Shown one piece after another: positions 4,894 through 43,219 of a DNA stretch of 64,000 nucleotides. Both the position numbers and the translations under genes were made by a program. Origin of the DNA: Collinsella aerofaciens (GTDB lineage: Bacteria; Actinomycetota; Coriobacteriia; Coriobacteriales; Coriobacteriaceae). The number at the start of each line of letters is the position of its first letter. Position 1 is the stretch's first letter. The notes beneath the pieces were generated by a model, which was given only the letters and a program-made list of their open reading frames with translations, searched no databases and was not told the origin of the DNA. The stretch spans positions 1 to 64,000 of the forward strand of contig NZ_JADNHZ010000012.1 in NCBI RefSeq assembly GCF_015554145.1. The letters run 5' to 3'.

Positions 4894-6129
4894 CTAATAA
4901 TTGGCTTCGTAGCCGTTGCCGTCGCCGGTGGGCTCTTCGTAGTAGTCCGAATCGCTCGAATCGCTTGAGTCATCGGAATCGTCAGAGCTGACCGATGAGG
5001 TTGCGGTACCGTTCGCGTAGTCGTCAGACGTGTTGTTGTTCAGGTCGCCGATCGTAGAGCTCGAACCGTCGGAAAGACCCATGGTGTTGGGACCCTTGGG
5101 ATCCTTGCCGGCGTCGACGCGCTCCATCATTTCCTTGAGCTCGTCCTCGTAGACAAAGACGTAGCTCACACCGTCGATCATGGTGCTGTCGTCGGCGTAC
5201 GAGGGCAGGTTGGCCGAGTAGATACCGTCGACATCCATACCGCGCATGGCATTGACCGTAGCCACGATATCCTGAACGCTCATATCGGTTACGAGCATAT
5301 CAGACAGCGAATTAACCAGGCCAAAGATCTTCGTGGCATCGAAGTTATTGAGAATCTGGTTGGCAAGGGCGCCAAGCACCTGACGCTGGTGGCGCATGCG
5401 CGTGTAATCGCCGTCGGCATAGGTGTAGCGGCAGCGGGCATAGGTAAGGGCGGTGGCACCGTCCATATGCTGCTGGCCAGCGGTAATCTTAATATCCAGG
5501 TGCTCGGGGTCGTCAACATCATCGGTTGCGTTAATGTCGATACCGCCAACCGAATCAATCAGCGCCTGCATTCCGTCGAAGCTGACCTCGGCATAGTGGG
5601 AAATCTGAACACCGCACAGCTCGTTGACCGCCTCGACCATGGCCTCGGCGCCGCCAACGGTATGGCAGGCGTTGATCTTCATGGTCTCGCCCTTGTACTC
5701 GACCTTGGTGTCGCGCGGAACGGAAATGAGCGTCGCCTGCTTTTGCGTGGGGTCGATGCGTGCCAGGATAATCGAGTCGGCACGATACGTATCCTCGCCC
5801 GGACGGCCGTCGGTGCCAAGAAGCAGCACGTAGAACGGATCCTTTGCCTCATCGGTGTCAACCAGAACCCGACGCAGATTGTCGGTAATGACATTAGAAT
5901 CGCCGAGCTTGCCCATAATGGTGGCAAACCACAGGCCGGCAGCGGTAGTGGCACTCAGCAGCACGCCAAGCACGACAATGAGCGCGACGTGACGAATCGT
6001 GTGGCTACGGCGACGTTGACGAGCGCGCTCGGAATAGCGAGCCACGTTATCGCGACTGTAGATCTTGGCCTGCGCACCAGTTGAGGGTCTTCGGGTGGTG
6101 GTATCCGCGAGGGGCTTTTTATTAAACAT
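4894..6129 (-). CDS. LytR-CpsA-Psr (LCP) family cell-wall ligase
   Basis: LCP-family phosphotransferase, 411 residues, expected to attach undecaprenyl-linked glycopolymers to peptidoglycan outside the membrane. It has a basic cytoplasmic N-terminus, one membrane segment near 47-69, then the LCP domain with LLLGTDGRPGE, RADSIILARID, ISVPRDT and the Arg-rich CRYTYADGDYTRMRHQR. The C-terminal approximately 60 residues are low-complexity Asp/Ser. The ATG at 6129 has AGG upstream; a TTG two codons earlier is less likely. The gene lies 12 bp after murA, so it is probably co-transcribed with peptidoglycan precursor synthesis. Repeat A copy 1 begins directly at its stop codon. Confidence 0.88.
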   Translation of the reverse strand: MFNKKPLADTTTRRPSTGAQAKIYSRDNVARYSERARQRRRSHTIRHVALIVVLGVLLSATTAAGLWFATIMGKLGDSNVITDNLRRVLVDTDEAKDPFYVLLLGTDGRPGEDTYRADSIILARIDPTQKQATLISVPRDTKVEYKGETMKINACHTVGGAEAMVEAVNELCGVQISHYAEVSFDGMQALIDSVGGIDINATDDVDDPEHLDIKITAGQQHMDGATALTYARCRYTYADGDYTRMRHQRQVLGALANQILNNFDATKIFGLVNSLSDMLVTDMSVQDIVATVNAMRGMDVDGIYSANLPSYADDSTMIDGVSYVFVYEDELKEMMERVDAGKDPKGPNTMGLSDGSSSTIGDLNNNTSDDYANGTATSSVSSDDSDDSSDSSDSDYYEEPTGDGNGYEANY

Positions 6130-6141
6130 AGGCAACCTGTA

Positions 6142-7425
6142 TTAGTAGATGACGGGATCGGGGACGGTAGCATGCTCGACATGCGCGCCGAGCGCCTGCA
6201 GCTTTTCGACAAACTGCTCGTAGCCGCGCTTGATGTGATGGATAGCCGAAACCTCGGTCGTCCCGTCGGCGATCAAGCCCGCTACAACGAGGGCCGCTCC
6301 GCCGCGCAGATCGGGCGAGGTAACCTGTGCACCCGAGAAGCCCTTGACGCCATGAATCATGGCATGATGGCTCTCGATACGAATGTCGGCACCCATGCGC
6401 ACCAGCTCTGATGCGAACATAAAACGATTCTCGAAGATGTTCTCGGTGATAACGGAGCTGCCATCGGCAAGGGCGGAGAGTACCATAATCTGCGCCTGCA
6501 TGTCCGTCGGGAAGCCGGGGAACGGAAGCGTCTGGATGTCGACCGGCTTGATACGCTCGGCACGGTTCACATGGACGCCATCCTCGACGCGCTCGCAGTC
6601 GATACCCATGAGCTCCATCTTCTTGAGCACCATGCCCAAGTGAATGGGGCAAAAGCCCGTGACATCGACACCGCGATCGTCGGCCATCAACGCACCGGCA
6701 ACGATAAAGGTACCGGCCTCGATGCGGTCGCCCACCACGCGATGGGTAACGGGATGGAGCTCTTCCACGCCTTCGATAGTCACGACGGGCGTACCGGCGC
6801 CTACAATCTTGGCGCCCATCTCGTTGAGCATGTTGGCGAGATCGACAATCTCGGGCTCGCGGGCGGCATTGTCGATAACCGTGGTGCCCTGTGCGCGCAC
6901 AGAGGCCATGATGAGGTTCTCGGTCGCACCGACGCTGGCGAACTCGAGCGTGACGGTGGTACCGCGCAGACCTTGGGGCGCATTAGCGTTGATGTAACCG
7001 TGGGCGGTATCAAACTCAACGCCCAGGGCCTCGAGACCCAGAATGTGCATATCGATCTTGCGAGCACCCAGGTTGCAGCCGCCCGGCATGGCAATCTTGG
7101 CGCGATGGAAGCGGCCCAGCAGGGGTCCCATGACGGCGGTGGAAGCACGCATCTTGGCAACGAGCTCGTAAGGGGCCTCCCAAGAATCGACCTGAGAGGT
7201 ATCAATCTCGAGCGTGTGCTCGTCGAGAACATCGATCGTAGCGCCCATGCCCTTGAGCACCTTGCCCATCACGTGGACATCGGAAATATCGGGCACGTTC
7301 TGCAGCGTCGTCTTGCCCGGCGCCAGAAGCGTTGCCGCCATGAGTTTGAGCGCGGAGTTCTTGGCGCCCGAGACGGGCACGGAGCCTCCGATGGCGTGGC
7401 CACCCTCAACGCGGATAATATCCAA
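6142..7425 (-). CDS. murA: UDP-N-acetylglucosamine 1-carboxyvinyltransferase
   Basis: MurA catalyses the first committed step of peptidoglycan synthesis, transferring enolpyruvate from PEP to UDP-GlcNAc in the cytoplasm. The 427-residue length is normal. SGAKNS contains the conserved Lys22, and the PEP-binding Cys is present (Cys117 in MPGGCNLGARKID), which is the form expected to react with fosfomycin. The terminal GYEQFVEKL region is typical. It sits downstream of the ATP synthase terminator and directly upstream of the LCP gene. Confidence 0.95.
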   Translation of the reverse strand: MDIIRVEGGHAIGGSVPVSGAKNSALKLMAATLLAPGKTTLQNVPDISDVHVMGKVLKGMGATIDVLDEHTLEIDTSQVDSWEAPYELVAKMRASTAVMGPLLGRFHRAKIAMPGGCNLGARKIDMHILGLEALGVEFDTAHGYINANAPQGLRGTTVTLEFASVGATENLIMASVRAQGTTVIDNAAREPEIVDLANMLNEMGAKIVGAGTPVVTIEGVEELHPVTHRVVGDRIEAGTFIVAGALMADDRGVDVTGFCPIHLGMVLKKMELMGIDCERVEDGVHVNRAERIKPVDIQTLPFPGFPTDMQAQIMVLSALADGSSVITENIFENRFMFASELVRMGADIRIESHHAMIHGVKGFSGAQVTSPDLRGGAALVVAGLIADGTTEVSAIHHIKRGYEQFVEKLQALGAHVEHATVPDPVIY

Positions 7426-7438
7426 GGTCTACCCTTTC

Positions 7439-7477
7439 AAAAAGCATGCCCGGGGTGGCTGGGCCATCCCGGGCATG
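7439..7477 (-). terminator. terminator of the ATP synthase operon
   Basis: A strong hairpin (CATGCCCGGG... / ...CCCGGGCATG) is followed on the minus strand by five Ts. It lies between atpC and murA, only 13 bp before the murA start codon. Confidence 0.8.
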
Positions 7478-7513
7478 ATGTGTTCGCAAATGGTCGAACG
7501 CTAAATCGTTTGA

Positions 7514-7906
7514 CTATTGGGCAAGCTTGAGCTTACACCATGCGATTTCATTATAGAGGTAGGCGCGGCGTGCATCATCCTCCGACAAATTACCCAGCTT
7601 CTCTTCAAAACCTTGAATATCAGCTTTAAGCTTGTCGGCATCGACGGTCGCCAAATCGCAAGCGCGCTCGGCGAGAACGGTCACGACATCGTCCGCAACC
7701 TGGGCATAGCCGCCGGCCACGGCAAACGTGTGGTCGACAGTGCCCATGGCCTTATCGGAAACGCGAACGTAACCGCGGTCGATCGTGCAGATCTCGCTGG
7801 AGTGAGCAGGCAGAACGCCAAACTCGCCATCCGTGGACGGAATCGACACAAACGCAGCGTCGCCCTCATAGGCGCAGCTCACGGGGCACACGATGCGGAT
7901 ACGCAT
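7514..7906 (-). CDS. atpC: F1Fo ATP synthase subunit epsilon
   Basis: Epsilon subunit of F1, 130 residues, linking gamma to the c-ring and regulating catalysis. The N-terminal beta-sandwich shows the family pattern GEFGVLPAHSSE and FAVAGGYAQV; the C-terminal helical pair follows from about residue 85. It is the last gene of the atp operon, 3 bp after atpD, and is followed by a terminator. Confidence 0.95.
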   Translation of the reverse strand: MRIRIVCPVSCAYEGDAAFVSIPSTDGEFGVLPAHSSEICTIDRGYVRVSDKAMGTVDHTFAVAGGYAQVADDVVTVLAERACDLATVDADKLKADIQGFEEKLGNLSEDDARRAYLYNEIAWCKLKLAQ

Positions 7907-7909
7907 AAC

Positions 7910-10272
<2,363 letters not shown>

Positions 10273-35819: not shown

Positions 35820-35905
35820 ACGGGGCGCCCCCTTGGCCTCGCAAATAAACACTTGCTAGCCTTATACCCCCAGACGGCACGGCGGCTCGCCGGCACAGAT
35901 AGGAA

Positions 35906-35970
35906 AACCATCACAACATTCGACGCTTTTCCTCGTTTTCGAGATTTTCATCGAATGTTGTGACGGTTTG
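35906..35970. repeat. family C palindrome, copy 1
   Basis: Inverted arms AAACCATCACAACATTCGA and TCGAATGTTGTGACGGTTT (one G-U type difference) enclose a 28-bp centre with CTCG-TTTT-CGAG. It is nearly identical to 40782-40846. Confidence 0.85.
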
Positions 35971-35990: not shown

Positions 35991-36021
35991 TGTGACAGAG
36001 GGACTGTCCCTTTGTCACATC
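35991..36021. repeat. family D palindrome, copy 1, overlapping MerR stop codon
   Basis: A 31-bp near-perfect palindrome, ATGTGACAGAGGGAC-T-GTCCCTTTGTCACAT when split at the centre. Its right end supplies the last Met codon and TGA stop of the MerR gene. Confidence 0.8.
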
Positions 36022-36884
36022 TGAAGGGCGACGGGGATTTGGATGCAGCAGAAGTCCTCTTGATGGGACTCGTCGTAGCTCGTGGTGTCGAGGTAGCAAA
36101 AGTCGAAAGCGTTGCCGATGGGCTGGAGCGCGTGCTTGTCCATGCAAGCCACGATGGCGCGGATGCCCTCGGGCTCATACGGCATGCCCCAGCGGCTCAT
36201 GCACAGATACGTGCCCTCGGGCAGCACCTCGACGCCAATTTCCGCCAGCTCGGCAGGATCGCTCGGCAGCATCTCCTCGGCACCGCGCGGCAGCACGGCA
36301 AAGGAGCCGGCGCCGGCGATGGGATCGTCGGAATGCAGCGCCTCGCGACGCAACATAGCTCCCCAACCGCGCATGGGGCGCGTGCCCGTCAGCGTACGCA
36401 TGCGCAGTATCGCCCGCATGAGCGTGGGGTGAAGCATCGAGCGGCCACGCTCGATTTCGCTCGGAAACTCTTCAAAGACCACGTAGCGGCGCTCGAATTG
36501 CTTGAGCTCCGGCCTGCCCTCGCGCTCGCGCCAGTAAACCGCCTCGTCGTAAAAGCTCAGGCGCTCCTGCACGCTCGCGCGCTCGGCTTTGAGCCCGGCA
36601 ATCTGCTCGTCGAGCGCCTGCACCCGTGAGCGCAGGTGATCGGTCATCTCGCCGATGTCGAACGTCGAGGTCAGACGGTCAATCTCATCGAGCTCGAGCC
36701 CCAGGTCGCGCAGCATGCAGATCAGGCGCATGAGCGGGATCTGCGTGGGCGAATAGAAACGGTAGCCCTTTTCGTTAACCACGGCGGGCTTAAACAGGCC
36801 GATCTTGTCGTAGTAGATGAGCGTTTGGCGCGAAACGTTAAACAGGCTCGCCATCTCGCTAATCGCATACATGCCCGTCTGCAT
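36015..36884 (-). CDS. MerR-family regulator with effector-binding domain
   Basis: Transcriptional regulator of 289 residues. A MerR winged helix (about 5-70) shows VSRQTLIYYDKIGLFKP and GYRFYSPTQ, followed by a coiled-coil helix (about 75-120). A C-terminal GyrI/BmrR-like effector domain ends in YLDTTSYDESHQEDFCCIQIPV. ATG 36884 has GGGAGG. It lies 92 bp downstream of ubiX on the same strand, so it may sense a substrate or product of the UbiX/UbiD pathway. This is inferred from position. Confidence 0.86.
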   Translation of the reverse strand: MQTGMYAISEMASLFNVSRQTLIYYDKIGLFKPAVVNEKGYRFYSPTQIPLMRLICMLRDLGLELDEIDRLTSTFDIGEMTDHLRSRVQALDEQIAGLKAERASVQERLSFYDEAVYWREREGRPELKQFERRYVVFEEFPSEIERGRSMLHPTLMRAILRMRTLTGTRPMRGWGAMLRREALHSDDPIAGAGSFAVLPRGAEEMLPSDPAELAEIGVEVLPEGTYLCMSRWGMPYEPEGIRAIVACMDKHALQPIGNAFDFCYLDTTSYDESHQEDFCCIQIPVALQM

Positions 36885-36976
36885 AGGTCCTCCCGACACA
36901 TCCTTTTGGCGCACAAAGCCCGCCGCCCACAGGGGCAGCGGGCTCAAACACCCCTCGTATCCTACCCTAAAAACGC

Positions 36977-37555
36977 CTACGACCAGCGCTTATAGTTTGC
37001 ACACGACACGCCGACGGCCTCGAGCGCCTTGGCGGCGATGTGATGCACCGCGTCATCGAGCGTGGCGGGGCCGTTGTAAAACGTAAGCATAGGCGGCATG
37101 AGCATGACACCCGGCACGCGCGCCAGGCGCGCCATGTTGTCGACGTGAATGGCGCTGAAGGGCGTCTCGCGCACCATGAGCACCAGGCGGCGTTGCTCTT
37201 TCATCTGTACGTCGGCCGCGCGCAGCAACAGGTTTTCGCTATAGCCGCTCGCAATGCCGGCGAGCGTCTTCATGGAGCAGGGCGCCACGATCATGCCGTC
37301 GACCGGATAGGTTCCGCTTGCGATGGCGGCGCCGATGTTCTTGTTGTCGTAGACCACATCGGCATGCGCGGCAAACTCGTCGAGCGTCATGCCGAGCTCC
37401 TGCTCGATGGTGATCTCTCCCCCACGCGTGACGACAAGCGCCGACTCGGCACCGGCCTGACGCAGGCACTTGAGACACTCGAGACCCAGCGCAGCGCCGC
37501 TGGCACCAGAAACGCCAACGACAATGCGACGAGGACGAACAGAAGACTCAGGCAT
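36977..37555 (-). CDS. ubiX: UbiX-type flavin prenyltransferase
   Basis: Makes prenylated FMN from FMN and dimethylallyl (mono)phosphate, the cofactor of UbiD decarboxylases. 192 residues, normal. The flavin-binding VGVSGASGAALG (13-24), the loop DGMIVAPCSMKTLAGIASGYS and the C-terminal MPPMLTFYNGPATLDD are characteristic. It begins 33 bp after the ubiD-family gene and probably shares its transcript, matching the partnered B and C genes of non-oxidative aromatic decarboxylases. Confidence 0.93.
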   Translation of the reverse strand: MPESSVRPRRIVVGVSGASGAALGLECLKCLRQAGAESALVVTRGGEITIEQELGMTLDEFAAHADVVYDNKNIGAAIASGTYPVDGMIVAPCSMKTLAGIASGYSENLLLRAADVQMKEQRRLVLMVRETPFSAIHVDNMARLARVPGVMLMPPMLTFYNGPATLDDAVHHIAAKALEAVGVSCANYKRWS

Positions 37556-37588
37556 GACAACTCCTTAACTATTTGGCAGGGCTACGTA

Positions 37589-39076
37589 CTAGAAAGCGAG
37601 CTCTGCTGCCCACTTATCTGTGTCGATCTCCATGAACTGCGAGCGGATGAAGTTCTTCTTGAGGTCGAACGGGACCGTGCAGTCGAAGATGGCCTTGCAG
37701 GCAATGCCGTGCTCGCGGATCGAAGGGTCGAACGCGGGGTCGTTGGACGGATCGAGCACGTGGCAGTGGCAGCCGGGGATGGTGATGAGGTCCACGTCGG
37801 CCTGGAAGCGCGTGGTCATGGCCCACATCACGTCGCTCATATCGAAGATGTCGACGTCCTCGTCAACAAGGATGACGTGCTTGAGCTCGGAGAATGCCGA
37901 GAAGGCGAGCATGGCGGCGTTGCGCTGACGGCCCTCGTCATTTTTGCTCGACTTCTTGAACTGCATGATGGCAACGAACTTGCCGCCGCCGCAGGGAGCA
38001 GCGTGGACGTTGAGCAGGCGGCCCGGGATAGCGGTCTCGACCATCTTGTAGATGGAAGCCTCGGTGGGGATACCGGCCATGGACACGTGCTCGTGCGAAG
38101 GGCCGATGCAGCTCTCCATAATGGGGTTGACACGCGTGGTGACGGCGGTGATCTTGATCACCGGGCAGACCTTGGCGCCGCCGGTGTAGCCGGGGAACTC
38201 GGGCATGGCGTAGCCGTGGCCGTTGACGTCCTCGTTGATGGTCTCGTCGTGCATGAGGTAGCCCTCGAGCACGTACTCGGCATTGGCGATGCACTTCTGC
38301 GGAACGGTGACGCAGTCGGCAAGCTCGACAGCGTGGCCGCGCAGGGCGCCGGCAATTTGCAGCTCGTTGAAGCCGAGCGGTGTGGTGGGAGCCTCAAAAC
38401 CGCAGCACATGTACACGGCGGGGTCCAAACCGATGGAGATGGAGATGGGCATGTCTTCGCCGCGCTGGCAGTACTCGTCAAAGAACGCGCCCAGGTGACG
38501 GCTGCCGGGGGTAATCCACATGGCAAGCTTATCCTTGTCGACGCAGGAGAAGCGGTGGATGGTCACGTCGGACTGGGAGCCGTCGGGGCTCGTGCCGTAG
38601 GCGAGGCCCATGGTGATGTAGGGGCCACCATCGACGGGCGTGTTGGTGGGAGCGGGAACGATCTTGCGCAGGTCAAAGCCCTCGTCGGTCGCCTTGTACA
38701 CGACCTCCTGGCAGTCGACATGCTTGCCCTCGGCGATCTGCTCGGGCGCGATCAGGTTCTCGAAGCGCTTACCGATCTCGAGGCCCAGGTGCTCCTCGTC
38801 CAGATCGAGCAGGGCGGCAACGCGCTTGCGGCTGGCAAGCATGCCGATGCAGACCTTGGCATCGTCAAAGCCCTTGACGTTGTTGAAGACCATCGCCGGA
38901 CCCTCTTTGGTCGGACGCATAACGGTGCCGCCGGCACCGACGTGGCGATAGACGCCCGAGACCTCGGCGTCCGGGTCGACCTGGGTGTCGGTCTCGAGCA
39001 GCTGGCCCGGCATCTCGCGCAAAAAGTCGAGTGCGGAGCGCAGGTCGTGGATCTGGGAAGCATCGGTAGTGGACAT
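37589..39076 (-). CDS. UbiD-family prenyl-FMN-dependent decarboxylase
   Basis: Reversible (de)carboxylase of the UbiD family, 495 residues. Family segments include ALDFLREMPGQLLETDTQVD, the prFMN/metal region CIGPSHEHVSMAGIPTEA with its acidic/Arg neighbourhood, AAPCGGGKFVAIMQF and DEDVDIFDMSDVMWA. ATG 39076 has AAAGGAG. The substrate is not fixed by sequence. The length and the neighbours (UbiX, DASS anion transporter, LpdD-like protein) resemble hydroxyarylic-acid decarboxylases such as gallate or 4-hydroxybenzoate type better than the ubiquinone enzyme, and no ubiquinone genes are nearby. Confidence 0.9.
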   Translation of the reverse strand: MSTTDASQIHDLRSALDFLREMPGQLLETDTQVDPDAEVSGVYRHVGAGGTVMRPTKEGPAMVFNNVKGFDDAKVCIGMLASRKRVAALLDLDEEHLGLEIGKRFENLIAPEQIAEGKHVDCQEVVYKATDEGFDLRKIVPAPTNTPVDGGPYITMGLAYGTSPDGSQSDVTIHRFSCVDKDKLAMWITPGSRHLGAFFDEYCQRGEDMPISISIGLDPAVYMCCGFEAPTTPLGFNELQIAGALRGHAVELADCVTVPQKCIANAEYVLEGYLMHDETINEDVNGHGYAMPEFPGYTGGAKVCPVIKITAVTTRVNPIMESCIGPSHEHVSMAGIPTEASIYKMVETAIPGRLLNVHAAPCGGGKFVAIMQFKKSSKNDEGRQRNAAMLAFSAFSELKHVILVDEDVDIFDMSDVMWAMTTRFQADVDLITIPGCHCHVLDPSNDPAFDPSIREHGIACKAIFDCTVPFDLKKNFIRSQFMEIDTDKWAAELAF

Positions 39077-39173
39077 AGCATGCTCCTTTCGGGAGAGTGC
39101 CCGGCGGCGGGGATGCCGCCGGGCTGGGTAACGTAGTGGGGCCGCGGCGCTCATAGATGAGGCGCTCGACCGT

Positions 39174-40631
39174 TTACATCAGGCCAAAGAGGTGGAACCA
39201 GGCGGCCTCGACCAGCACGACGGCAAAGACGACCGCGGTGAGGGGAATGCCCATGCGCATGGCCTCTTTGGAGGTGTAGCCGCCGGCGTCCTTGCCCTCG
39301 CCGATAAGGATCGGCAGGTTGTGGAACGGCAGGATGTAGTGGATGTTGATGGACGTGAAGACGATGAGCGCCACGGCGAGCGGGCTCACGCTGGAGCCGG
39401 CCGCGAAGCTGATGAACGCCGGCACGCACACGCCGAGCACGGCCATGACCGAGCCCATGAACATGTGGATGACCATGGAGAGCGCGGCGACAAGCAGGGC
39501 GAACAGGAAGATGTTCTCGGGCACGGAGCTGGGGAGTACGACGTCGGCGATCCAGGCGTTCATGCCGGTGGCGCCGCCCACGGAACCCACGGCCATGGCG
39601 GCCGTCAGGAACATGAGGGACTTGATGTCGACAGCGTTCCAGCTGGCGGGAGTGAGGACCTCGCCGATGATGGGCATGGCGAGCGCGACGCCGATGGCAA
39701 GTGTCACCCAGCCGATGTAATCGCCCGAGACGGTGAGCCACAGCGCGATGGCGATGACAAGCCACACGATGGTGCGGATCTCCTTGACGGAGAGCTTGCC
39801 GAGCGCGGCCTGCTTGGCCACGATCTGCTCGCGATCGTAGACGAGCTCCTTGCTGGGCTTAAAGAGGAAGAGACCCAAGAACAGGGTGCACAGCAGCGCG
39901 ACCAGCATAGGCACGCTCATGTACAGGAACCAGTCGACAAAGGACGGGCTCATGCCGCCGGCCTCGGCGCTGTACTGCGCAACGAGCGGGTTGAGTGTGG
40001 AGTCGCCCGTCAGGAAGAACATGGAGCCCGGGGCAGCAGCGGCAAACACGAGGAAGCCGAGCTTACCCTTGTCGTCGTCACCGTAGCCGGCGGACTCGGC
40101 GATGACCGAGACGACGGCGAGGATGAGGAAGGCGCGGGGGAACGGATGCGGGATCAGCAGCGACAGCACAAAGGTGAGAGCGAAGATCGAGATGATGAGC
40201 GACTTGGCGTCGCGCACGAACTTGAGCATAAACGCATAGGCGATGCGCTCGCCCAGGCCCGACTCCTTGACCGCGCTGGCGATGAGGTAGGCACCAATGA
40301 CGAGCCACATGGTGGCTTTGGTCCACGAGCTAAACGTGGAGGCGACTGTCGCCGAGATGCTCGCGGCGCCCGTGTCGTCCACGCACACCTTGAACAGAAC
40401 AAGCAGCGCGCAGTAGAGCAGGCCCACAAAGCCCGGCTGCGCCACGCCGCATGCCCAGAACACCACCGTGGCGAGCGTCAGTGCCAGACAGGTCTGAGCG
40501 CCGACCGTGAGCTCGACCGTCGAGCTCAGCTCCGCCAAAGGAAGAAACTTCACCAGCAAAAAGACAACGATACCCAGCACAAAGCCAATTTCGCGCTTGG
40601 TGATCTTAAACGCCTTCTTTTCCGCTTCCAT
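39174..40631 (-). CDS. DASS/SLC13-family anion transporter
   Basis: Membrane transporter of 485 residues with a dozen or more hydrophobic segments, of the divalent anion:sodium symporter or CitT exchanger type. Recognisable are the cytoplasmic-start segment ITKREIGFVLGIVVFLLVKFL-like helix, MWLVIGAYLIASAVKESGLGE, TGDSTLNPLVAQYS and a C-terminal FTSINIHYILPFHNLPILIGEG. ATG 40631 lies close to AAAGGTGG. It is 97 bp upstream of the UbiD gene, so it probably imports the carboxylate that UbiD decarboxylates or exchanges substrate for product (inference). Confidence 0.87.
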   Translation of the reverse strand: MEAEKKAFKITKREIGFVLGIVVFLLVKFLPLAELSSTVELTVGAQTCLALTLATVVFWACGVAQPGFVGLLYCALLVLFKVCVDDTGAASISATVASTFSSWTKATMWLVIGAYLIASAVKESGLGERIAYAFMLKFVRDAKSLIISIFALTFVLSLLIPHPFPRAFLILAVVSVIAESAGYGDDDKGKLGFLVFAAAAPGSMFFLTGDSTLNPLVAQYSAEAGGMSPSFVDWFLYMSVPMLVALLCTLFLGLFLFKPSKELVYDREQIVAKQAALGKLSVKEIRTIVWLVIAIALWLTVSGDYIGWVTLAIGVALAMPIIGEVLTPASWNAVDIKSLMFLTAAMAVGSVGGATGMNAWIADVVLPSSVPENIFLFALLVAALSMVIHMFMGSVMAVLGVCVPAFISFAAGSSVSPLAVALIVFTSINIHYILPFHNLPILIGEGKDAGGYTSKEAMRMGIPLTAVVFAVVLVEAAWFHLFGLM

Positions 40632-40781
40632 CTCTCCACCTTTCTTGTTGGGGGCGCTCCGGATTCGCGGCCACGTTGCCACTTGAAAAGGGGCGCCCGT
40701 TATCGGACACCCCTTACGTTGCGCTGTGTTGTGGCAATACAGTCAAGCGGGATTTTTGGATGAGAAGCGATCCTCTGGGCA

Positions 40782-40846
40782 AAACCGTCACAACATTCGA
40801 CGCTTTTCCTCGATTTCGAGATTTTCATCGAATGTTGTGACGGTTT
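40782..40846. repeat. family C palindrome, copy 2
   Basis: Perfect 19-bp arms (AAACCGTCACAACATTCGA on the left) around a 27-bp centre, differing from copy 1 at only a few positions. It sits between the LpdD/Nudix gene and the DASS gene. Confidence 0.85.
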
Positions 40847-40848
40847 GG

Positions 40849-40880
40849 ATGTGGCAAAGGGACTGTCTTTTGTTTCACAT
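40849..40880. repeat. family D palindrome, copy 2, overlapping LpdD/Nudix stop codon
   Basis: ATGTGGCAAAGGGAC on the left and a degenerate right arm ending TTTCACAT. The right end provides the final Met codon and TGA stop of the fusion gene, exactly as copy 1 does for the MerR gene. Confidence 0.65.
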
Positions 40881-41822
40881 AGCGAGATCCGTACGGATGG
40901 ATGGGTCGCTGAGGGCCTCGCGGAGCCAGGGGGCCAGCTGCTCGGGGTGACCCTGCAGGTAGCCTTTAAGCTCGGACGGGGCCACGCGGCGCACTTCCGA
41001 GATCTCCTCTTGGTTGATATGCAGCTCGCCCGGCTCAACATGGGCAAGGTAGACCTCGCACCATTCGCACTCGCAGCGGCCGTCGCCGTGGTCCTCGCGG
41101 TACACCACGTGACCGAGGTGCTTGAGCTGATCGGGCCCGCGCGTGATGCCAAGCTCTTCGTTGATGCGACGCGCCGTGGCGGCCGCGACGTCTTCCCCGG
41201 GGAGCGGATGGCCGGCGCAGCTATCGGCCAGCACCCCGCCCCACAGGCGCTTGAGCGGACTGCGGCGACAGAGCAGCAGGCGCGCGTCTTCGCCCTGGCC
41301 CTCGACCAGAAGCGTCAGAAATGCCTGATGCAGGACGCCCTCCCCCGTATGGGCTTCGATGCGATCGACGGGGCCAAGTGCCTCGCCGGTCGCAGCATCG
41401 ACCGCCACGACCTCGGCGCCTGCGCCGCCCTCATCCCAGCCGGCGCGCAGAATGCGGGCTGCGGCCTCCTCGAGCGCGGCGATGAGTTCCTTGGTGGTAT
41501 CGAGCATGCGCCGCAAGTCGTCCGCGGTCGCGTTCTCCACATGAAAACCCGTGCTTGCAACTACCGGCACGCCAAAGCGCGTGGCCAGCGCCGCCGCAAT
41601 ATCGTGCGCCGGGATCTCGTCTCGATGGCACGGAACGGCCAGGATGCTCACCGTCGCCGTACGGCCGGGCTCGGGGCGAGGAATGGCCTGCGCCGTGGCG
41701 CCCAGGTGCGCAAACTCCGGCGAGCAGGCGTACACCGCCATACCTCGCGGCGTCACCGTCAACTGGGCCTCGAGCGCAAACTTGCCCTCGCCCACTACAA
41801 CCTTTGTCGTGTGCATACCCAT
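40875..41822 (-). CDS. LpdD-like (prenylated-flavin chaperone) domain fused to IPP-isomerase-type Nudix domain
   Basis: Two-domain protein, 315 residues. Residues 1-125 resemble LpdD, the small third gene of gallate/hydroxybenzoate decarboxylase loci (AHLGATAQAIP, CHRDEIPAHDIAAAL, STGFHVENATADDL). Residues 136-315 match type 1 isopentenyl-diphosphate isomerase: His158 (EAHTG), His165 (LHQAF), His205 (GHPLPGE), Glu223 (EELG), and Glu251/Glu253 (CECEWC) align with the E. coli metal and acid residues. The catalytic Cys67 position is Ala203 (SCAGHP), so isomerase activity is doubtful and a phosphohydrolase role is possible. ATG 41822 has AGGAG. The gene precedes DASS-ubiD-ubiX on the same strand. 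Confidence 0.78.
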   Translation of the reverse strand: MGMHTTKVVVGEGKFALEAQLTVTPRGMAVYACSPEFAHLGATAQAIPRPEPGRTATVSILAVPCHRDEIPAHDIAAALATRFGVPVVASTGFHVENATADDLRRMLDTTKELIAALEEAAARILRAGWDEGGAGAEVVAVDAATGEALGPVDRIEAHTGEGVLHQAFLTLLVEGQGEDARLLLCRRSPLKRLWGGVLADSCAGHPLPGEDVAAATARRINEELGITRGPDQLKHLGHVVYREDHGDGRCECEWCEVYLAHVEPGELHINQEEISEVRRVAPSELKGYLQGHPEQLAPWLREALSDPSIRTDLAM

Positions 41823-41863: not shown

Positions 41864-41884
41864 CCTGTATTGCGACTATACAGG
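41864..41884. promoter_or_regulatory. inverted repeat between LpdD/Nudix gene and MFS gene
   Basis: CCTGTAT and ATACAGG separated by 7 bp in the divergent intergenic region; TATAGT on the minus strand overlaps it and could be a -10 of the LpdD/Nudix gene. TGTTAGAGT near 41929-41937 could be the extended -10 of the MFS gene. Confidence 0.4.
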
Positions 41885-41983
41885 CAAGCGCAGCCTGCGA
41901 CAAAGGAGGCAGGCACCTGACACATTCTGTTAGAGTTGCAGGGATTGAATCCCGCTTATTCATGCGACATTGGAGTGACAACC

Positions 41984-43219
41984 TTGACCGCCGCAACCAC
42001 GCCTAAAAGTAAGTCAACCGCCGCCGCGCTCTCCCCCGCGCGCACCAGGCTCTGCCTGGCGCTGCTCGTGCTGCTGGGATTCTCGCTCGGCTGCTCCGAG
42101 TTCGTGGTCATCGGCATCGAAAGTGACTTGGCGACGGAACTCGGCATATCGCTTGCCGCTGCGGGCCAGCTCATCAGCGTTTTTGCACTGGTCTACGCCA
42201 TCGCGACGCCGGTGCTTGCGCTCAGCACGGGGCGCTTCCGTCGTTACCAGCTGCTCGTGTGCTACAGCATTATCTTTGTGCTCGGCAATCTGGTCATGGC
42301 GTTGGCGCCCAACTTCCAGGTACTGTTTATCTCGCGCATTGTCCTGGGATCCGTCTCGGGCGCGCTGCTCGCCGTGGGCGTGACGTACATCCCCGAGCTG
42401 CTGTCCCCGCAGCAAACTTCGCTTGCCATCTCGGTCGTGTACGGCGCGTTTTCCGTGGCGATGGTCTTTGTGACCTCGATTGGCAAGCTTGTGGCCGACA
42501 CGCTCGACTGGCACGTGGCCATGTACGGTACGCTGACCTTTGCCGTTTTGATCTGCGGAGCGCTCGTGGCGTTTATGCCGCGCGCCGGACAGACCGACGA
42601 ACCCGCTACCTTCCGCGAGCAGGCGAGTCTGCTACGCGAACCGAGCATCATCACCGGCATGCTCATCTTTTTGTTTGGCGTGGGATCGGTCTATGTGTTC
42701 TACGGCTACGTGACGCCTTATCTTGAGCAGGTGCTGGGCATGGGCACTGTTCAGGCGAGCACCACGCTTATGGCCTACGGCGTGTTCTGCCTAGTCTCGA
42801 ACATCTTGGGCGGATGGATCGACGCGCGCTTTGGCATGAAGGCGCTGCTTGTGACGTTTGTGCTGCAAGCTGCGGCGTTACTCGGGCTGTTTGCCGTGGG
42901 CGACACCATGCCGCTCGCGCTGGTCTTTGTCTTTAGCCTAGCGCTGCTCATGTACCTGTTCTCGGTGTCATGCATCACGCACTTTATGGACGTGGCGCGC
43001 AGCCGCCATCCCAAGTCGATGGTGCTCGCGAGCTCGGTAGAACCCATGGCGTTTAACGTCGGCATTTCGTTTGGCACCGCAGTAGGCGGCGCCGTGGTGA
43101 GCAGCGTTGGCATTGCCTACGTGGGCGCCGTGGGCGCTGCGTTCTCGCTCGTAGCCTGGGCGCTTGCGCTAGTGACGATTAAGCTGGCTCGCTGGGAGCG
43201 CAAGCGAGCGAGGGCGTAA
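41984..43219 (+). CDS. MFS transporter (AraJ/DHA1 drug- or sugar-efflux type)
   Basis: Major-facilitator protein, about 411 residues with twelve hydrophobic segments. The segment SEFVVIGIESDLATELGIS, the motif-A region between helices 2 and 3 (LALSTGRFRRYQLL) and SRIVLGSVSGALLAVGVTYI in helix 4 fit the DHA1 group that includes AraJ and PbuE-type effluxers. The TTG at 41984 has GGAG eight bases upstream; the longer frame from 41936 lacks a site. The substrate is unknown. It is followed after about 50 bp by the low-molecular-weight phosphatase gene. Confidence 0.85.
   Translation: MTAATTPKSKSTAAALSPARTRLCLALLVLLGFSLGCSEFVVIGIESDLATELGISLAAAGQLISVFALVYAIATPVLALSTGRFRRYQLLVCYSIIFVLGNLVMALAPNFQVLFISRIVLGSVSGALLAVGVTYIPELLSPQQTSLAISVVYGAFSVAMVFVTSIGKLVADTLDWHVAMYGTLTFAVLICGALVAFMPRAGQTDEPATFREQASLLREPSIITGMLIFLFGVGSVYVFYGYVTPYLEQVLGMGTVQASTTLMAYGVFCLVSNILGGWIDARFGMKALLVTFVLQAAALLGLFAVGDTMPLALVFVFSLALLMYLFSVSCITHFMDVARSRHPKSMVLASSVEPMAFNVGISFGTAVGGAVVSSVGIAYVGAVGAAFSLVAWALALVTIKLARWERKRARA

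Follow-up and report, generated by a model that had tools for sequence, protein, structure and literature searches.

In a window of 64,000 nucleotides of Collinsella aerofaciens (the whole stretch of DNA analyzed here, positions 1 to 64,000 of contig NZ_JADNHZ010000012.1, assembly GCF_015554145.1), we observe a gene whose 315-residue product joins an LpdD-like N-terminal domain to a Nudix domain of the isopentenyl diphosphate (IPP) isomerase type. It lies upstream, on the same strand, of genes for a DASS-type anion transporter, a UbiD-family decarboxylase and a UbiX flavin prenyltransferase, with a MerR gene downstream. The initial annotation of this DNA had described both the fusion and the gene order; open reading frames and profiles confirm the order, and profiles together with a fold model bear out the fusion. 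The genes and domains are as follows.

40875-41822, minus strand: gene for the LpdD-like/isomerase-type Nudix fusion, 315 aa, ATG start with AGGAG upstream
41466-41789, minus strand: LpdD-like (PF21758) domain, by profile match, fold match and invariant columns
40893-41414, minus strand: isomerase-type Nudix domain in which Ala203 takes the place of Cys67, by profile, alignment and fold match
39174-40631, minus strand: DASS-type anion transporter, PF00939 at 119.5 bits, start ATG at 40631 placed by its ribosome-binding site
37589-39154, minus strand: UbiD-family decarboxylase, nearest named family VdcC at 436.7 bits, below its cut-off of 650
36977-37555, minus strand: UbiX flavin prenyltransferase, TIGR00421 at 210.6 bits (cut-off 108.9)
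36015-36947, minus strand: MerR-family regulator, PF13411 at 59.6 bits, last gene of the DASS-UbiD-UbiX-MerR unit

This set of genes recalls the VdcBCD/LpdBCD hydroxyarylic acid decarboxylase (non-oxidative) systems, in which UbiX and UbiD are likewise joined by a small accessory protein. The UbiD and UbiX of the window score best against VdcC and VdcB, yet below those exception-level cut-offs, and the Collinsella locus differs in having the fusion as its accessory and in a transporter and a MerR that belong to the same unit.

PF21758 matches residues 12-119 of the fusion (67.3 bits against a cut-off of 27), with a genome search placing the domain at the same coordinates, and Pfam NUDIX matches residues 165-298. 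The NCBIfam model for isopentenyl-diphosphate Delta-isomerase (IDI), NF002995, covers residues 137-310 with 130 bits against a cut-off of 127, so that automatic annotation could call the fusion an isomerase despite its missing cysteine; the TIGR02150 equivalog score falls below its cut-off (73.6 versus 105.8). An AlphaFold2 model built from 13 relatives has a mean pLDDT of 80.8, with low values at residues 131-134, the linker. When compared by Foldseek, the C-terminal half of this model resembles Escherichia coli Idi and the N-terminal half resembles 8po5, the crystal structure of Lactobacillus plantarum LpdD (probability 1.00, TMt 0.75, rmsd 2.5), so structure prediction speaks for an N-terminal domain related to LpdD rather than an unrelated one. 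A PDB search with the LpdD half by sequence alone returned no match, although the fold search did find LpdD. The metal ligands H35, H61, and D63 of the L. plantarum protein (PMC10865409) correspond to H39, H66, and D68 of the fusion, as judged by motif and spacing and not from superposed coordinates, and these three residues are invariant in alignment A1. Both proteins thus have a PF21758-type fold, shared over 120 columns, and accompany UbiX and UbiD, whereas L. plantarum LpdD (8po5, PMC10865409) stands alone, the Collinsella version is joined to a Nudix domain, and the two are 13% identical in the structural alignment. In addition, a stand-alone LpdD that is 70% identical to the fused one occurs at L098 (genome G362, 5633-10033) without UbiD nearby, where it adjoins genes that by eye resemble indolepyruvate ferredoxin oxidoreductase subunits.

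With E. coli Idi as reference for the Nudix half, the metal/acid positions H25, H32, H69, E114, and E116 are found as H158, H165, H205, E251, and E253, and R51, K55, R83, E87, Y104, and W161 are also retained. The catalytic Cys67 is replaced by Ala203, K21 by Arg, and N64 by Asp. The alignment therefore agrees with the annotated retention of all five metal/acid positions and loss of the cysteine. Overall, the fusion shares with type 1 IDI (E. coli Idi, 1hx3/1nfs) the fold, the metal ligands, the diphosphate-binding residues and the E116/Y104/W161 positions, and differs from it in these three substitutions and in the added LpdD domain. The hydrolase and isomerase forms of the Nudix box have been defined by REUXEEXGU and GX5EX7RRXXEEXG, respectively (PMC5389931); the fusion departs from the full pattern GX5EX7REUXEEXGU, its sequence being GHPLPGEDVAAATARRINEELGI, in which RR replaces RE. 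We also considered the EE of this box as a mark of reversion to a hydrolase and ruled it out, as the Cys-type IDIs of Coriobacteriia share it.

The loss of the cysteine extends well beyond the window. A scan of 400 Coriobacteriia genomes, along with fetched neighborhoods, yielded 66 Nudix sequences for a tree, E. coli Idi and a single YfcD-like outgroup sequence among them; counts refer to genomes and not to independent events, and families are given by the labels f1, f2, f11, and f12. In the tree, the 15 rows in which the Cys67 position holds Ala or Ser fall into one group (support, 97/90) that is recovered as a single group in 98% of bootstrap trees, and another group (99/96) holds the 49 Cys-type coriobacterial sequences. 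The Ala/Ser clade takes in the fused proteins of family f1 (that of the window) along with stand-alone ones from f11 and f12. One member has Ser at this position and every other has Ala, and the clade is further marked by Arg at K21 and Asp at N64. Nearly all members retain the metal ligands together with the pair Y104 and E116; the clade also keeps the C5-pocket and diphosphate residues, and Cys202, which adjoins the lost position, is invariant. Going by this alignment, which also extends the Cys-to-Ala change of the initial annotation to the whole clade, the loss is clade-wide and not a peculiarity of one strain. Ala is likely derived from Cys, given that the wider IDI family is Cys-type; the root of the tree is unfixed, and the tree alone does not give the direction. 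The clade scores above or just short of the cut-off of NF002995, an isomerase "equivalog" model, and its proteins are therefore probably misannotated as isomerases in public genomes. Outside Coriobacteriia, other Actinomycetota have IDI-type Nudix proteins in which Ser takes the Cys67 position (L193-L195; genomes G506, G486, and G622), and at L195 the adjacent genes by eye resemble benzoyl-CoA/2-hydroxyacyl-CoA reductase-type subunits.

The co-occurrence with ubiX and ubiD that was to be expected from the initial annotation proved strong and repeated: 13 of the 15 sampled Ala/Ser-type loci lie within UbiD/UbiX/LpdD clusters, with the Nudix domain fused or separate and in several gene orders, among them UbiD-DASS-UbiX-LpdD-UbiD-(RibBA)-Nudix, LpdD-Nudix-UbiD-UbiX-MerR, and UbiX-fusion-UbiD. 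The remaining two loci hold a repeat copy in the place of the missing cluster. Among the 69 genomes of the order of G061, six carry an Ala/Ser-type protein, all in such clusters, and no further IDI-like match was found in that order at 1e-20. Family f2 contributes nine loci in which a canonical Cys-type IDI stands beside UbiX, mostly with LpdD. IDI-type Nudix genes thus appear to have joined clusters for prenylated FMN (prFMN) more than once, since on the tree the cluster label has to change two or three times. A second RibBA, for flavin synthesis, is found within the cluster in four genomes (two of these confirmed by family models), each of which carries a further RibBA elsewhere. As RibBA and IDI-type Nudix genes both recur in the clusters, supply of both the flavin and the prenyl half of prFMN is a recurring theme of these loci.

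Within Collinsella, the fusion follows its partners closely. Of 45 genomes, 16 have LpdD and 14 have UbiD; LpdD accompanies UbiD in every one of the 14 and is absent from 29 of the 31 genomes that lack UbiD (Fisher p = 7e-10, with kinship not corrected for). The two remaining genomes, G003 and G007, retain an intact fusion without UbiD. In place of the missing DASS-UbiD-UbiX-MerR block they hold a single copy of a 67-bp hairpin repeat, of which two copies bracket the block in the window.

40781-40847: hairpin repeat between the fusion gene and DASS, a possible terminator and the right-hand copy bracketing the four-gene block
35904-35970: left-hand copy, bracketing DASS-UbiD-UbiX-MerR together with the right-hand one

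The hairpin between the fusion gene and DASS is near perfect (-45.1 kcal/mol, z = -8.9), the two copies are direct repeats, and several more occur elsewhere in the genome (C33, C22). The cluster was probably lost recently in G003 and G007, and the one remaining copy fits a loss through recombination between the repeats; the element seems to be similar to a repetitive extragenic palindromic (REP) sequence through which these two relatives could apparently shed the block cleanly. Of the UbiD-negative genomes, G005 has just a 32-aa remnant of the fusion and G022 a broken gene, so that the fusion seems to decay once its partners have been lost.

A housekeeping role like that of type 1 IDI is unlikely for the fusion, and we rejected it as a candidate function: most Collinsella genomes are without any type 1 IDI-like gene, there is no type 1 IDI in Collinsella besides the fusion, and type 2 IDI is over its cut-off in none of these genomes. 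Collinsella G000 has ispH and no other IDI, which argues for dimethylallyl diphosphate (DMAPP) from the methylerythritol phosphate (MEP) pathway and against a housekeeping isomerase. The same genome gave no ribB match and probably imports riboflavin.

Two copies of one palindrome point toward common regulation of the fusion gene and the block.

41865-41883: 19-bp palindrome CTGTAT-N7-ATACAG upstream of the fusion gene, overlapping TTGCCT-19 bp-GAAGAT; candidate MerR operator
40724-40742: second copy with one mismatch upstream of DASS, at TTGACT-19 bp-CAACGT; candidate MerR operator

In MerR-type activation the dyad is expected inside a 19-20 bp spacer between the -35 and -10 elements. Read by eye, each dyad here sits within a 19-bp spacer that follows TTGCCT or TTGACT and precedes a weak -10. 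Genome-wide, and with one mismatch allowed, there is just one further, imperfect site. The reversed pattern, used as a control, has three matches on each strand as well; the number of sites is thus not significant by itself, and what counts is their position and conservation. Close relatives conserve the palindrome at both places, and in another family (L087, L090, and L091) it stands directly before the MerR gene of the cluster; MerR is part of the cluster at L102, L103, and L105 as well. A standard promoter/terminator scan found no more sites than in shuffled sequence. From the position and conservation of the palindrome and the MerR-promoter-like spacing, joint control of the fusion gene and of DASS-UbiD-UbiX-MerR by the MerR of the cluster is likely. 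The fusion gene is probably its own transcription unit, as the hairpin and a separate operator- and promoter-like site lie between it and DASS; a single operon of the two was rejected on the same grounds. The fusion gene has its upstream region in common with a divergent efflux-type transporter gene of the major facilitator superfamily (MFS; 41936-43219). In G005 the palindrome persists though the fusion is deleted, and the site might also serve this MFS gene.

A dedicated module for the supply and delivery of prFMN is well supported by these data, and the link to prFMN supply is strengthened by the extra RibBA copies and by the canonical IDI in the same type of cluster in family f2. The reading that we favor, at just short of an even chance, is that the fusion serves as a dedicated supply-and-delivery component of an inducible UbiD-type module and includes a step from DMAPP to dimethylallyl monophosphate (DMAP); hydrolysis of DMAPP by the Nudix half would be the best single mechanism. 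DMAPP would be produced via the MEP pathway and bound as a C5 diphosphate in the retained metal, diphosphate and pocket site of the Nudix half, which, without the isomerization cysteine, would remove one phosphate to give DMAP, the donor for UbiX. UbiX would form prFMNH2, and the fused LpdD-like domain would bind it and may pass the cofactor to apo-UbiD. DASS may import the acid, the UbiD-type module would carry out aromatic-acid decarboxylation, and MerR at the two palindromes would switch on the fusion gene and the DASS-UbiD-UbiX-MerR operon. Several of these steps have precedents: UbiX uses DMAP as substrate (PMC7662398), LpdD binds prFMNH2 and helps activate UbiD (PMC10865409), and E. coli NudB, NudF, NudI, and NudJ convert DMAPP to DMAP, feeding prFMN (PMC12359138). 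The latter are general hydrolases, whereas the Collinsella protein is IDI-like and genetically tied to a prFMN cluster, with the same reaction as a proposal. Applied to the entire Cys-less clade, the idea is slightly less probable: its members may be dedicated DMAPP phosphohydrolases that give DMAP to UbiX, which would place the Collinsella-type fusion at both ends of prFMN synthesis.

Four observations weigh against the favored reading. The Nudix box stays IDI-type (RR), so loss of the cysteine alone does not imply hydrolysis. The Cys-type IDIs of family f2 clusters suggest that isomerase activity, and not hydrolysis, can fill the slot. LpdD/UbiX/UbiD clusters exist without a nearby Nudix gene (L105, L117, L160, and L162), and the gene is thus not essential to the cluster. 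Finally, no UbiX or UbiD is detectable near the Ser67-type Nudix genes of L193-L195, which belong to other Actinomycetota classes.

The main rival, which we consider unlikely, is that the Nudix half is an inert pseudo-isomerase that binds a C5 diphosphate or phosphate and either concentrates or channels DMAP(P) for UbiX or serves as a dock between the chaperone and UbiX/UbiD. This would suit a site that keeps its ligand-binding residues and lacks both the isomerase cysteine and the Glu that hydrolases have in RE, as well as a fusion partner that is itself a noncatalytic chaperone. The C67A variant of E. coli Idi was reportedly crystallized with a substrate analogue (PDB 1ow2/1q54), and Ala indeed stands at the Cys67 position in the 1ow2 sequence. 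However, metal ligands and a Y104/E116 pair kept in nearly all clade members are not obviously needed for mere binding, and tethering is no general role, as families f11 and f12 have the gene unfused.

Two further alternatives are improbable, to a similar degree. In one, the Nudix half has remained an IPP/DMAPP isomerase, with another residue in the role of Cys67, and raises DMAPP for prFMN. The canonical IDIs of family f2 occupy the same kind of cluster, the scores near the NF002995 cut-off suit an isomerase, and the invariant Cys202 stands beside the lost position; yet all clade members except one have Ala where the essential base would be, with K21R and N64D accompanying the loss, and Cys202 is disfavored as a substitute because most canonical IDIs of Coriobacteriia have the same neighboring Cys. 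In the other, the Nudix half hydrolyzes a different diphosphate, for example FAD to FMN, for the flavin half of prFMN. The RibBA genes in the clusters show the importance of flavin supply, and the probable riboflavin import of Collinsella G000 is in line with it, but the C5-pocket residues at the Y104, E116, and W161 positions are retained and the nearest folds are Idi, not nucleotide-sugar or NADH hydrolases. Chance association or hitchhiking, with no role of the Nudix half in prFMN metabolism, is very improbable: the fusion gene is probably transcribed on its own, and two UbiD-less genomes still keep it, but the association is repeated in four families and several gene orders, the gene decays in UbiD-negative genomes, and both units share the palindrome.

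UbiX needs DMAP, and in E. coli its formation is credited to general Nudix hydrolases and ThiM (PMC12359138). In the open-license literature searched we found no dedicated bacterial DMAP-making enzyme, and no paper on this fusion, on the Cys-less IDI clade, or on prFMN clusters bearing IDI or RibBA. All parts are members of known families, and the novelty lies in how they are combined and in the probable new activity of the clade. A Cys-less IDI relative fused to a prFMN chaperone offers a direct test object for the question of the DMAP source, and the fusion might also be of practical use in the expression of active UbiD enzymes.

Some of the clusters hold additional genes. A further UbiD paralogue, distant at about 27% identity, is present in L080-L083, L085, L100, L101, and L103, mostly adjoining DASS, and in several of these clusters a LysR gene lies near it. 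In L103, a C. vaginalis-type cluster, a gene for a DUF554 membrane protein (7315-8106) lies between UbiD and MerR.

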